A stretch of DNA of 64,000 nucleotides from Bolinopsis microptera (taxonomy: Eukaryota; Ctenophora; Tentaculata; Lobata; Bolinopsidae), in contig NC_087073.1 in the NCBI RefSeq assembly GCF_026151205.1, forward strand, positions 11,168,411 to 11,232,410. Reading direction: 5' to 3'. The translations under genes were made by a program, and so were the position numbers. Below, piece after piece: positions 279 to 57,800 of the stretch (position 1 is the first letter of the stretch; every line of letters begins with the position of its first letter). The notes beneath the pieces were generated by a model that had not been told where the DNA came from, ran no database searches, and worked only from the letters and a program-made list of their open reading frames with translations.

Positions 279-3200
279 CTGCAAAAAGATACAGTCAGAC
301 CTCTATGCGAATTAAATACAGGTCTGACTGTTCTCTCGCGGGGATTAAAATTTTAATTCAAATATCAGAAATTTTCAGATCTCCTTCCCAACTAGCACTA
401 CGAATTATGACGGAGTTATCTGCACTGTTACCATAGTAACAGTGTAGTTACCATAGTAACAGTGTAGTTACCATAGTAACAGTGTAGTTACCATAGTAAC
501 AGTGTAGTTACCATAGTAACAGTGTAGTTACCATAGTAACAGTATAGTTACCATAGTAACAGTGCAGTTACCATAGTAACAGTGCAGTTACCATAGTAAC
601 AGTGCAGTTACCATAGCAACAGTGCAGTTACCATAGTAACAGTGCTGCTAATATCTCACCTGTTCCTCCACATAGTGAGGTGTCATGACAGTGTTGGGTG
701 TGTTAGGCATATCGCCATAGATCTGTTCTTGGTAGGTCAGAGGGTACATGGCCGGGACGTCCTCCTACGAGGGGTAATTTAGTAGTTAGTATCAATTATG
801 GTTTAATTTCTAAAGTTAATGTAAGTTATACCCTCTTTAAAAGTTGAATTTTGAAACTGGCAATACAATGAAATTGAGCGTAATACTAATATACACTATA
901 CAGAGTGTTTCAAGACGTGTGTCCAAATTTAAAATTATAACTTTTTATTTTATGAAGGAGCAACCTAATATACCTTTGTTCTTTTCCTCTTCTTGAGTAC
1001 GAAGTGTACGATAGCTGCCACTACTATGATAAGTATCAATGCGCAGCACACTATAATTATAATCTTCTTAACGTCGAATGGCTTTGCTGCATCAATTGTG
1101 GCGCCACTGTCTGGGTCTTGGGGGTTGTAATCTGAGAGGTCAACTTAAGTAACCAATTAATTAAATTAGGTGTTCAATAATGACGCTACTTTAGAGGAAC
1201 AAGTATTTTTACTGTTAACAGAGTAACTATTACCTGTAATAGCGACTTCGATATCACGACTACTCTTTGGGAGACCCACATTGTTGCTGACTTCGCAGTA
1301 ATATCTTCCAGCATCTGCAGGAACTATCCGGATCAGTTTCAACTCTCCTGATAATAATTAATTGATTAATTAATTAATTAATTAATTAAACAATATGGAA
1401 GTTTAAAAACATATAATAATAAAATGCAATTAGAGAAACAAAAATATCTTTGATTTTGTTTCAGGAACTCCACCATCCACCGCCATTTTGAATTTCAGTA
1501 GTTCAAGTTTTGCGGTTGATGACAAACATTTCCCCTCCCACGAATATTAGCAATTCGTGTGAAAGAATGTTCTAACTTACTAGGATAGGAACTGTTACCA
1601 TGGTTACTAACCTGAGTTCTGGTCGATTCTTGCACTCTCAGGAAGAGGACTACCGTTCTTTAACTTCCAGGTTACTGTAGGTTTGGGGTGACCATCACTC
1701 AAACATGTCAGAGTCACATCTTCACCTGGTCAAGATATCAGTTACCATGATATCAGTTACCATGATATCAGTTACCATGATATCAGTTACCATGATATCA
1801 GTTACCATGATATCAGTTACCATGATATCAGTTACATATACCATGATATCAGTTACCATGATATCAGTTACCATGATATCAGTTACCATGATATCAGTTA
1901 CCATGATATCAGTTACCATGATATCAGTTACCATGATATCAGTTACCATGATATCAGTTACCATGATATCAGTTACCATGATATCAGTTACCATGATATC
2001 AGTTACTATGATATCAGTTACCATGATATCAGTTACCATGATATCAGTTACCATGATATCAGTTACCATGATATCAGTTACCATGATATCAGTTACCATG
2101 ATATCAGTTACCATGATATCAGTTACCATGATATCAGTTACCATGATATCAGTTACCATGATATCAGTTACCATGATATCAGTTACCATGATATCAGTTA
2201 CCATGATATCAGTTACCATGATATCAGTTACCATGATATCAGTTACCATGATATCAGTTACCATGATATCAGGTACCATGATATCAGTTACCATGATATC
2301 AGTTACCATGATATCAGTTACCATGATATCAGTTACCATGATATCAGTTACCATGACGACTGGAACACAGTGCGCGGCGTATATCAGATGAGTGGTCCGT
2401 AAATTATAGTTTTCAGTGGAATACGTTATCCGAATACAATCTTCTTTCATATTTGTAGTTTTTCTCGCCTCTATGAGCAATTCTGGGGTTTTGGTCTTAC
2501 CTCGGGGCACAGTTACATTTCTAGGACCGACTCTGGTTACGGTGGGGCTCACCAAAACTGTCAGATCTGCTTCAACGTCAACATTTCCTGCTTCACCCTG
2601 TTAATTATACTGTTTTATCTCATTGACACCTATTCAAACATATTATTGAAACATATTGAAACATATTATTACTGCCGTAATAATTATACTTGCAGTATAA
2701 TTATTGCATTATAATATTATTATAATTATTACTGATAATAGCGTAATAACCTCTTTAAACTATTTCAAATTATACAAGGTAGCCCAGAAGTAACTACCCA
2801 CACGCAACCCTTTAATAACTCACGTAATTCTCATCAGAATTGCTTACAAATTTCAGAGAATAGCTTAATAGAGATATGGGTCAAACTTAGATTTTCTGAA
2901 AATTTCGCCACCATAAAGTGAGAACGTTTTGGGTTAGGAACTCCAAAGTTTCCAGACACATTTGGTTTGATAATTAAAGTGCTTTTAAGTTGTATTGGTT
3001 GTGTACAACTAAGCTGAGTTATGACCCTTTTAAGATCTTTCGGAAACGTGATCTCGGCACTTAATCAATGATTTCGTCACCCAATCACTCAATCAGTGAT
3101 CTCATCGGGAGCTATTCACTAGCGGGCAAAATAAGCCTCATCAGGACGGTGCCTTAAAAACATCAGCAGGTGCGGGATCACCAAATTGTCTATTAACTCT

Positions 3201-54800: not shown

Positions 54801-57800
54801 TTATAGTCATTATAGTCATTATTAGTCATTATTAGTCATTATAGTCATTATTAGTCATTATTAGTCATTATAGTCATTATAGCAGGAACCCGTATAACCC
54901 TAAAATGGTGTCAAGACTCAAGAGACTAAAATAATTATTTCCTATTTAATTCACGTTTTTGACACCACTTGGGGTACCAAATGCAAATTTTGGGCTCTAA
55001 AACTCCTATTTCTTGGCCAATTTTTTATTTTTTCATGCTGATTTGGAGGCCATTAAAGCATTTGACCCAGTCAAAAAGGTTTCAGTTGTATATCTTTTAC
55101 GGTTTTTGCGGAAATTTGCGTTAAAATTGATGCCGTGGTGTCAGTAAAATGGCACGGATAAATATATATCGTCTCGCTTTATATATAGTAAGATTATAGT
55201 CATTATAGTCATTATAGTCATTATAGTCATTATAGTCATTATAGTCATTATAGTCATTATAGTCATTATAGTCATTATAGTCATTATAGTCATTATAGTC
55301 ATTATTAGTCATTATTAGTCATTATAGTCATTATAGTCATTATAGTCATTATTAGTCATTATTAGTCATTATTAGTCATTATTAGTCATTATAGTCATTA
55401 TTAGTCAATGTTTTTTAAGTAGCTTTGTGTTTTATAAGCTATTCCGTTTTACTGCAACCATTGTGTTTGAAGTAGTTGTGATTATTAGGACAGACTTTTT
55501 TTTACTGAAAAGCTACTCTTGGAGGCAAAGAGGACCAGGAGTCAGGACTCTTCGAACCGCAATACATATATGTACTCCTTCATCAACTATATTGTTCTTC
55601 ATGCAAAGCGGTTGATCCATCATAATCTTCATTGTTCTTGCCAATACCATCGGTTAACAGGGATGTAGGAATGATTTTCTGCGGGCCAAATATCACGTTT
55701 TCTATAAGTATATGGAAACAGCCTTCCGAATCGGTGGTACGGACTTCAGAAAACCGAAAAAATATTTTCGGCTCATAATGATCAGGGTTGCATGTAAAGA
55801 TGTAACATGAACAAAAGTAGTCTCTAGAAAAACTTTGACAGAAAAACGTCGACAGAAAAACTTTCCCCAGAAATTTTTAGAAACCTAAATAAAAAAGTTG
55901 GCCCCTTGCCCAGATTTTATGGGGGGATGCCCCCCCCCCCCCCCCCGCTTGCTACACCCCTGTATGAATATCTGTATGAATATCTTGATTTGGTATAAAT
56001 ACTCGGTATAATAGAGAGAACTGCTGAACATTTTGTTGTAACTTTGTATGAAAAGCATTAATATAAGCCCTTTTATAGGCCCTTTTATAGGCCTATTTTA
56101 TAGGCCTATTTTATATAGGCCTTCGAGTTGTGTAACCTTCAGGCTTCAATAGTCGCACAAGAAATCTGAGTTTGTCCGAGAATCACGATAGTTGCTTTTT
56201 ACTCCTCAGACAGATTGAAGCCTACTTCTTAAGATGGTCTTGCACGTGCAGAGCATCTTTGCGGTTAAAAATTAGTATACAGATTAAAATTGGATATATT
56301 CGCCGACAGTCGATTTTTTAAGTGGATTTGATTACTGCATTAAGATAAAAACTACCTTAAATTATAGTTCACTCCGTTTCTGTTACACTAATCTGTTAAT
56401 TTGACGTTTCTTCTGTCATTGCAAATCATTGGATGTGGACATGTTAATTTGGAGTGCTCGCCACTACTTCCTTTTGAAGACAAAATCCATAACTTTAAAG
56501 GTTTAAATAGGAATAGCTAATCGTAATTCGTCATTTATTAAGCTTTCATCTCTAGAATCTACGTCAGATATTAACAAGTTAATAGAATATATGTCAGATA
56601 CTAACAGAATCTGTGTCATATATTAATAGAATCTATGTCAGATACCAACAGAATCTATGTCATATGTTAATGAGTTTTACTCTGATGTTCAACCTTTTGT
56701 ACCCTTAAACTCATTAGGTAAGGCGAATATGGGTGATGATAATGCAGGCCACAGGGGAACAGTTATCTGATCATAATACCAAACATGGTTCATCTTAGTT
56801 AAGTTAGTTAGTTAGTTCATCTTAGTTTATTAACTTTATCAGACGATGTGTCCGTTTCACAGAGCCTATAAAGTTCGCTGTTTTCCACAATGAATTTTGA
56901 GAATTTGTCGGAGGTGCACATTCTATGGGTAATATACAGCTGTTTCACTATGGGATCAGCCTAACTGTTACTGTTGTAGAGCATTACAGATGCTACTACT
57001 TTATCTTACAACTTGATTTTAGTGTGTAGGAGTATTATGAGGCCTTGCAGCCAGCATTTCTTAAATTTATTAAATGCACGTGCAGCATGTCCAAGATTCA
57101 AAGATTGTAACGTTGTTGAATGAGAGCAATGATCTCCGTGATTCATTGGTTATTGGTTCTCCATGTATCAAGTTTTTCTACCAGTTAATTCTTTAGTATC
57201 AGCCAGACGAACATGAACAAACTTAGTTTTCAATTCATTCACAAACAAGTTCCACTCAGAAAAGATTTGCTTGATGGCAGGCAGCATGCTCTCGAGCTCT
57301 TTCATATCATCGCTCTTGTAGTCTACAATGTAGAGACTATATGATATGCGGACGATGTAGAGTCTGCACTCTGCATTGTCCTCAAATTGTTGGTTTAAAA
57401 TTAACAGTTTGTATTGTCATTATTAGAAATTACGAAAAGATATGGCACCTCTCCTTTAACCGTAAATAACTTTCAAACGTCCGATTTTGTCGATTACTGC
57501 ATATTTTAAGTTCAGTAAATTGACTCCATTTTACATTTAATCCCCTCTATAAATAATTAAATAACCTTATCTTTTGTAAATTTGCAATAAGTTCAGTTTG
57601 CTGCTGCCGCGTAGTTTACCTTTGCGTGTGTACTTGTACATTACTATACAAGTACACTATGGCGGATGACCCAACTTTGACCCGATCCCAGGAGTTGATT
57701 AAGGAGTTCAACTATGATTAACAGGAAGATGTGGAAGGCTGTGTTGCACGCTGGTCCATTCAGTTAGAAAAAGACCTGCATATTGACTACCGTGAAATTA

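Follow-up and report, generated by a model that had tools for sequence, protein, structure and literature searches.

Mirage-like minisatellites at splice sites in the genome of the ctenophore Bolinopsis microptera

INTRODUCTION

Mirages are minisatellite-like tandem duplications that extend across intron-exon boundaries at both the 5' and the 3' ends of introns, and they have been described in amphioxus in Adh3, the globin genes BflGb6 and BflGb9, troponin C, and PGBD5 (PMC3087553, PMC3902484). These two reports describe many mirages that carry repeated AG/GT signals, normal mRNA, and BflGb6 haplotypes with six and three mirage units. Length polymorphism or somatic instability is a further character of amphioxus mirages. 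Here we describe boundary-spanning arrays of this kind in a 64,000-nucleotide stretch of the genome of the ctenophore Bolinopsis microptera (C2:11168411-11232410 of a 264.65-Mb assembly; hereafter the window), in which they lie in a semaphorin gene and a CAP-Gly domain gene, and we show that intronic minisatellites lie close to splice sites more often than expected at random, in the window and at loci outside it.

Two further systems are related. In human segmental duplications, boundary minisatellites with units of about 30 bp alter gene structure; in the available text they were recognized by comparison of recent paralogues and are tied to novel introns, and no border excess is reported there (PMC2812944). 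In the Rogers model, as cited in PMC3087553, introns are gained through tandem duplication of AG/GT signals.

Introner elements are near-identical introns that are dispersed genome-wide and bounded by the element ends.

We found no report of splice-site minisatellites in the ctenophore literature, a search outside which subscription papers largely fell, and the searched text of a ctenophore genome paper mentions tandem repeats once and introns never (PMC11797021). Such arrays do have a precedent, as the amphioxus mirages are the same phenomenon in single genes (PMC3087553, PMC3902484). Like them, the Bolinopsis arrays are tandem units with splice signals that span boundaries at both intron ends. 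Unlike the amphioxus cases, which are confined to a few genes of a single chordate lineage, those of B. microptera reach 112 copies, occur several to a gene, are joined by many arrays that only abut a site, and show a measured excess. What is new relative to known mirages is the ctenophore host, the frequency, and the quantified border excess.

RESULTS AND DISCUSSION

Gene models of the window

The minus-strand gene encodes the semaphorin-4A-like protein P0001 (981 amino acids; Sema, PSI, and Ig domains), and the plus-strand gene encodes the uncharacterized protein P0011 (1068 amino acids; CAP-Gly domain); both proteins are annotated from B. microptera, and the domains are those of Pfam. We retain the earlier label "WW gene" for the latter, in which exon 10 gives a weak Pfam WW match (16.2 bits against a cut-off of 26.9). 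Exon-by-exon Pfam scans in the window gave nearly no matches. Spliced matching to P0001 and P0011, with a scorer that prefers GT-AG, rebuilt 34 of 34 in-window junctions, all GT-AG, and reproduced the proteins. With the donors after semaphorin exon 19 and WW-gene exon 17, these junctions give 70 splice sites for 36 coding exons, in agreement with the initial estimate of seventy or so. Six further introns of the WW gene were placed in the DNA flanking the window.

Arrays that straddle a splice site

A tandem unit spanning an intron-exon boundary, the defining feature of a mirage, was found in 10 of the 46 intronic arrays sampled, 4 of them in the window. These four hold a true splice site and 16 to 46 coding nucleotides each, exactly where the initial annotation had placed them. 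They and the arrays related to them are as follows.

7938..8433 (-): donor mirage of semaphorin exon 12; 99-bp unit, 5.0 copies, donor at 8414; unit with 20 coding nucleotides, donor GTATGG, and intron; 4 in-frame decoy donors of equal score
7519..7742 (-): array related to 7938..8433; 34-bp unit, 6.6 copies, sequence GGTTACTA
5371..5664 (-): acceptor mirage of semaphorin exon 13 (PSI domain); 43-bp unit, 6.8 copies, acceptor at 5388; unit with 25 intron and 18 coding nucleotides (SAFPYC); 6 equal decoys
6302..6912 (-): second block of the 43-bp semaphorin exon 13 unit; 14.2 copies
42763..43912 (+): donor mirage of WW/CAP-Gly gene exon 7; 52-bp unit, 22.1 copies, donor at 42808; unit with 46 coding nucleotides (NSRELFFNRVTGEAR) and GTTAGT; 21 equal decoys
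52405..52793 (+): acceptor mirage of WW/CAP-Gly gene exon 13; 43-bp unit, 9.0 copies, acceptor at 52778; unit with 27 intron and 16 coding nucleotides; 7 equal decoys

Outside the window, an array with 6 coding nucleotides straddles the WW-gene exon 19 donor. Across all ten straddling arrays, units measure 26 to 109 bp, copies number 3.6 to 112, and 3 to 46 coding nucleotides are included; six donors and four acceptors are straddled, so both 5' and 3' boundaries are hit. The units are local and unlike one another, as a local origin predicts. This also speaks against introner elements, the comparison being one of units and not of whole introns. In the 52-bp array, the single difference of the exon copy from the consensus recurs in several, not all, intronic copies.

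As in the Rogers model, splice signals are copied by tandem duplication, but the Bolinopsis array lengthens an intron from one end. Intron gain of the Rogers type was not seen, as the array reaches only one intron end in 10 of 10 straddling cases. In the semaphorin 12/13 intron, the repeat unit at one end differs from that at the other.

Both mirages of that intron seem to be interrupted by stretches with inverted repeats. The two 43-bp blocks are separated by 637 bp containing inverted repeats (5665-6301), a hairpin-rich stretch. Between 7519-7742 and 7938-8433 there are 14-bp perfect inverted repeats (7790-7803 and 7925-7938), and 7790-7938 is a short element with GGGACAAAAGG-type inverted ends, similar to one at 45658-45778.

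Arrays that abut a splice site

The other 13 near arrays abut a site without including coding bases, and are thus not mirages in the strict sense. The arrays of the window that lie beside a site are listed below.

427..644 (-): 20-bp array, 10.9 copies; end 16 bp from the donor of semaphorin exon 19 (last exon base 660)
1734..2356 (-): 15-bp array, 41.1 copies; 9 bp away from semaphorin exon 16, whose first base is 1725
3828..3888 (-): 19-bp array, 3.2 copies; adjoins the donor of semaphorin exon 14 (3889), whose GTAACC is part of the repeat
4529..5101 (-): 21-bp array, 27.4 copies; 43 bp from the donor of semaphorin exon 13 (5144); unit also on other chromosomes
39577..39644 (+): 14-bp array, 4.9 copies; 8 bp upstream of the first base of WW-gene exon 3 (39652)
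41509..42602 (+): 37/110-bp array; 13 bp upstream of the first base of WW-gene exon 7 (42615); acceptor-like CTCTGTTAG in the unit
53033..53099 (+): 21-bp array, 3.2 copies, with 60% matches only; 18 bp past the donor of WW-gene exon 13 (53015)
54705..54882 (+): 10/29-bp array; 14 bp past the donor of WW-gene exon 16 (54691)

Five of these, initially placed at 421, 1735, 4526, 39575, and 54705 and said to start near a site, do lie 16, 9, 43, 8, and 14 bp from one, and the acceptor-like copy reported before WW-gene exon 7 was recovered as CTCTGTTAG. Two near arrays had been overlooked (3828-3888 and 53033-53099). Array 54705-54882 was counted at 38 bp, the merged Tandem Repeats Finder (TRF) row having been used in the counts.

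Excess of arrays near splice sites

An array was defined as a TRF period of at least 7, at least 2.5 copies, and a length of at least 60 bp, and the window contains 29. Twelve of the 29 lie within 45 bp of one of the 70 sites, against 3.04 expected when collapsed units are placed randomly over the window (P = 0.00025, the floor for 4000 draws); four straddle a site, against 1.3 expected (P = 0.036). The excess was also present in the exon-dense parts of the window alone (6/9 versus 2.39, P = 0.0135; 6/8 versus 1.75, P = 0.002). The 45-bp limit follows the wording of the initial annotation, while the 20-bp limit and the distance bins used below were set after a first look.

Outside the window we sampled the remainder of the WW gene together with 20 kinesin motor-domain loci, chosen blind to repeats. 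Kinesin loci were taken from a Pfam search with only their coordinates known, first 14 and then 6, and places with several exons were preferred. Twenty of 28 places were used; those omitted were C2:22.50M, C8:11.10M, C9:1.21M, C7:9.56M, C5:7.39M, and C11:11.34M, as well as C11:9.24M and C1:18.69M, at both of which a single exon holds the entire motor domain. Exons were found with a profile hidden Markov model built from kinesin proteins and a splice-site matrix from 40 exact introns. Among the 120 kinesin proteins listed, two are from B. microptera and two from Mnemiopsis, so most kinesin exon ends are predicted. At the two loci with B. microptera proteins, 8 of 8 predicted junctions were exact, and three further junctions had escaped prediction. 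All counts refer to one assembly and 22 loci. Kinesin loci L028 and L040 (C13:4.98M and 5.07M) are recent duplicates with 97.6 to 99.7% identity, so the 20 loci represent fewer than 20 independent genes; no counted intron of either duplicate holds an array. L040 carries about 0.93 kb extra in one intron relative to L028, and both of its tandem arrays are there.

For these data each collapsed unit was moved within its own intron (20000 draws for pooled counts). The WW gene outside the window has three arrays in six introns: one straddles a site, and the other two stop 13 and 11 bp short of acceptors. Of the 18 arrays in 98 kinesin introns, 11 span a site or come within 20 bp of one (6.13 expected, P = 0.006), and the total outside the window is 14 of 21 (6.62 expected, P = 0.00025; 4.83 in the pooled null). 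The claim of far more arrays at sites than random placement would give was thus upheld both in the window and beyond it. Over all 46 arrays of the sampled introns, 23 were straddling or within 20 bp, against 9.91 expected (P = 0.00005, the floor).

By distance, observed and expected numbers were 10 and 5.7 for straddling arrays, 7 and 2.2 at 0 to 10 bp, 6 and 2.0 at 11 to 20 bp, 4 and 4.3 at 21 to 45 bp, 1 and 6.2 at 46 to 100 bp, and 18 and 25.6 beyond 100 bp. The excess is limited to the 20 bp nearest a site. Twelve of the 23 near arrays are at donors and 11 at acceptors, a balance that rejects a donor-only mechanism. Outside-window counts kept their excess when the two introns based on a weak L033 exon were removed (11/17 versus 5.36) and under stricter array criteria (10/15 versus 4.73). 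Arrays are unevenly spread, being present in 14 of the 98 kinesin introns, and 11 of the 18 kinesin arrays are in L029 and L033, two loci close to the end of C12; without these two loci the count is 7 of 10 versus 2.22.

Several arrays were left out of the pooled counts. In the window these were 427-644 (16 bp from its donor; its intron ends beyond the window) and 32604-32683, 33357-33439, and 33463-33588, upstream of the first coding exon of the semaphorin gene. At the kinesin loci they were the arrays outside modeled introns (L028 4-71; L033 81-140 and 8089-8189), two in L040, at about 70 and 100 bp from exon matches, whose junction could not be located, one in L043 (about 600 bp from the nearest exon match), and one in L045 that overlaps an exon match by 24 bp, with an acceptor recognized by eye. 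Junctions not found, and therefore excluded, numbered two in L026 and one each in L028, L031, L040, and L043.

Direction of copying and origin of the arrays

The coding parts of the five semaphorin and WW-gene straddlers also occur in Mnemiopsis proteins, as TTCQSCQ, SAFPYC, NSRELFFNRVTGEAR, YD-TA (with one difference), and NT. In these arrays the exon is therefore the source, and copying ran from exon to intron. The comparison covered these five of the ten straddlers, the other five being in kinesin loci. The suggestion that exon-intron boundaries seed tandem expansion accordingly gains support for these five arrays, whereas for arrays that abut a site it is inference only.

We consider it probable, on balance, that the arrays are mirages and their abutting kin, produced by duplication at borders and subsequent minisatellite turnover. 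A local tandem duplication with a breakpoint at an exon-intron border, or about 20 bp from it, would take in the native splice site or the adjoining edge of the intron, and the captured unit would then grow into the intron through ordinary minisatellite turnover. The exon-side copy would remain the working site, with the other copies becoming intronic decoys that splicing presumably passes over. Such duplications would have to begin more often at borders than in intron interiors, perhaps owing to recurring border sequences that offer microhomology, to strand breaks, or to transcription-linked structures. This scheme accounts for the units being local, for copying from exon to intron, and for the near-equal numbers at donors and acceptors.

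Several points weigh against this explanation. That borders are favored as starting points, by whatever seeding mechanism, is something we infer. The straddling excess is weak by itself (10 versus 5.66, P = 0.03; outside the window, 6 versus 3.59, P = 0.12; at the 20 kinesin loci, 5 versus 3.38, P = 0.23), the six later kinesin loci alone are uninformative (2/2 versus 1.26, P = 0.38), and 13 of the 23 near arrays include no coding bases. The null ignores composition gradients near exons and treats arrays as independent, including related ones (the two 43-bp blocks of the semaphorin intron and two L034 arrays). Finally, not all arrays are locally born, since the 21-bp unit of 4529-5101 is found on C12 as well, and the genome contains 646 matches to its dimer.

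The main rival is survivorship, in which arrays arise anywhere, interior ones are lost, and deletions at borders are purged because they destroy the site, so that nearness reflects retention and not birth. The depleted interior bins (46 to 100 bp and beyond 100 bp) agree with it, as do the short kinesin introns (median 197 bp with arrays removed), which fit a deletion-prone genome, and the slightly lower median copy identity near sites (92% versus 96% far from them; 23 arrays each, medians only). Contraction by unequal exchange would still delete border arrays, however, and survivorship predicts no sharp limit at 20 bp; we regard it as unlikely.

Somewhat less likely again is sequence attraction, the copying or insertion of dispersed donor-like GTAAC/GTTAC/TAGTAAC units at matching splice motifs. 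Such units are indeed common, the GTAAC/GTTAC type being present in 26 of 107 array units (6.1 expected) and TAGTAAC in 12 (0.6 expected), and one 21-bp unit lies near donors on both C2 (43 bp) and C12 (gap of 5). For the dimer of this unit (unit sequence GTAACTATGGTAACTAGTAGT), the genome contains 646 exact matches, overlapping ones included. Among the matches listed (the first 100 places), the dimer is crowded at the starts of C1 and C2 (C1:39178-926222, C2:1861-3484, and elsewhere), and 61 of the 62 listed places on C1 are in the first 0.93 Mb of 26.2 Mb. Subtelomeric minisatellites are a feature of vertebrate chromosome ends; the listed dimer matches resemble them in position, whereas the window lies mid-chromosome. 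GTAAC/GTTAC is also enriched at the start of array-free introns (first 10 bp, 80 introns; 7 versus 2.1), partly since some donors read GTAAC. Nearness is nevertheless not explained by the motif: units of this type are as frequent near sites as far from them (10/23 versus 8/23, P = 0.76), acceptors are affected as often as donors, and the straddling units hold local exon sequence. The dispersed donor-like family (GTAAC/TAGTAAC) is a second ingredient, but it does not account for the nearness.

Short-intron crowding, in which every array would land near an end, explains part of the raw count, as 18 of the 29 array-bearing introns are below 650 bp with arrays removed, but as the whole cause it is very improbable and, like random placement, rejected, because the same-intron null already includes intron length and gives 9.9 against 23 observed.

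Decoy splice sites

Decoys were defined as sites scoring no more than 0.5 bits below the true site. The eight straddling arrays scored (all but those of L041 and L044) hold 4 to 105 decoys each, 205 in total, of which 68 are in frame and 137 out of frame; by score, all eight carry AG/GT signals usable as cryptic sites, as mirages do. The P0001 and P0011 protein models use the exon-side copy of the straddled sites. The earlier proposal that decoys may be tolerated fits these protein models. That decoys are instead selected, for example for splicing regulation or variant exon ends, seems highly improbable to us. The 99-bp array of semaphorin exon 12 is in frame and without stops, so each further donor would add 33 residues; however, unit length is not divisible by three in 8 of 10 arrays examined, two-thirds of the equal-strength decoys are out of frame, and the next WW-gene exon 7 donor, if used, meets a stop four codons later.

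Other features of the window and its flank

An inverted pair about 90% alike and 47 kb apart, retroelement-like by eye, occupies introns of both genes, and its three reading frames have no Pfam match. The remaining features are a reading frame without a Pfam or PDB sequence match, two simple runs, and a photoprotein cluster.

10225..11289 (-): first copy of the inverted pair, in a semaphorin intron
58285..59341 (+): second copy of the inverted pair, in a WW-gene intron
61614..62666 (+): unbroken frame of 351 amino acids in WW-gene intron 16, with several hydrophobic stretches, seven-transmembrane-like by eye
17343..17616 and 62973..63184: long, almost pure AG run (137 copies) and pure TC run (106 copies), each the reverse complement of the other
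About 14 to 40 kb right of the window (L007, L009-L010): photoprotein reading frames, three of 209 amino acids, one of 171, and one in two pieces

The one photoprotein frame searched matches berovin (1.4e-125) and mnemiopsin 1 (3.8e-125).

Implications

It has been proposed that new introns and exon ends draw on duplicated splice sites as raw material, and the printed cases we found come from a few genes of lancelets and from duplicated genes of humans. With half of the sampled intronic arrays at or within 20 bp of a site, the birthplace of minisatellites becomes testable, as does the choice by the spliceosome of one among up to about a hundred equivalent sites. It is a tentative extension, which we hold to be possible but not probable, that in ctenophores minisatellites are born at exon-intron borders because these are borders, whether donor or acceptor, through a process bound up with transcription, splicing, or chromatin there; a considerable fraction of genes would then carry arrays of duplicated sites, with splicing reliably choosing the exon-side copy among dozens of equals. 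The genome of B. microptera supplies enough cases to study intron change.

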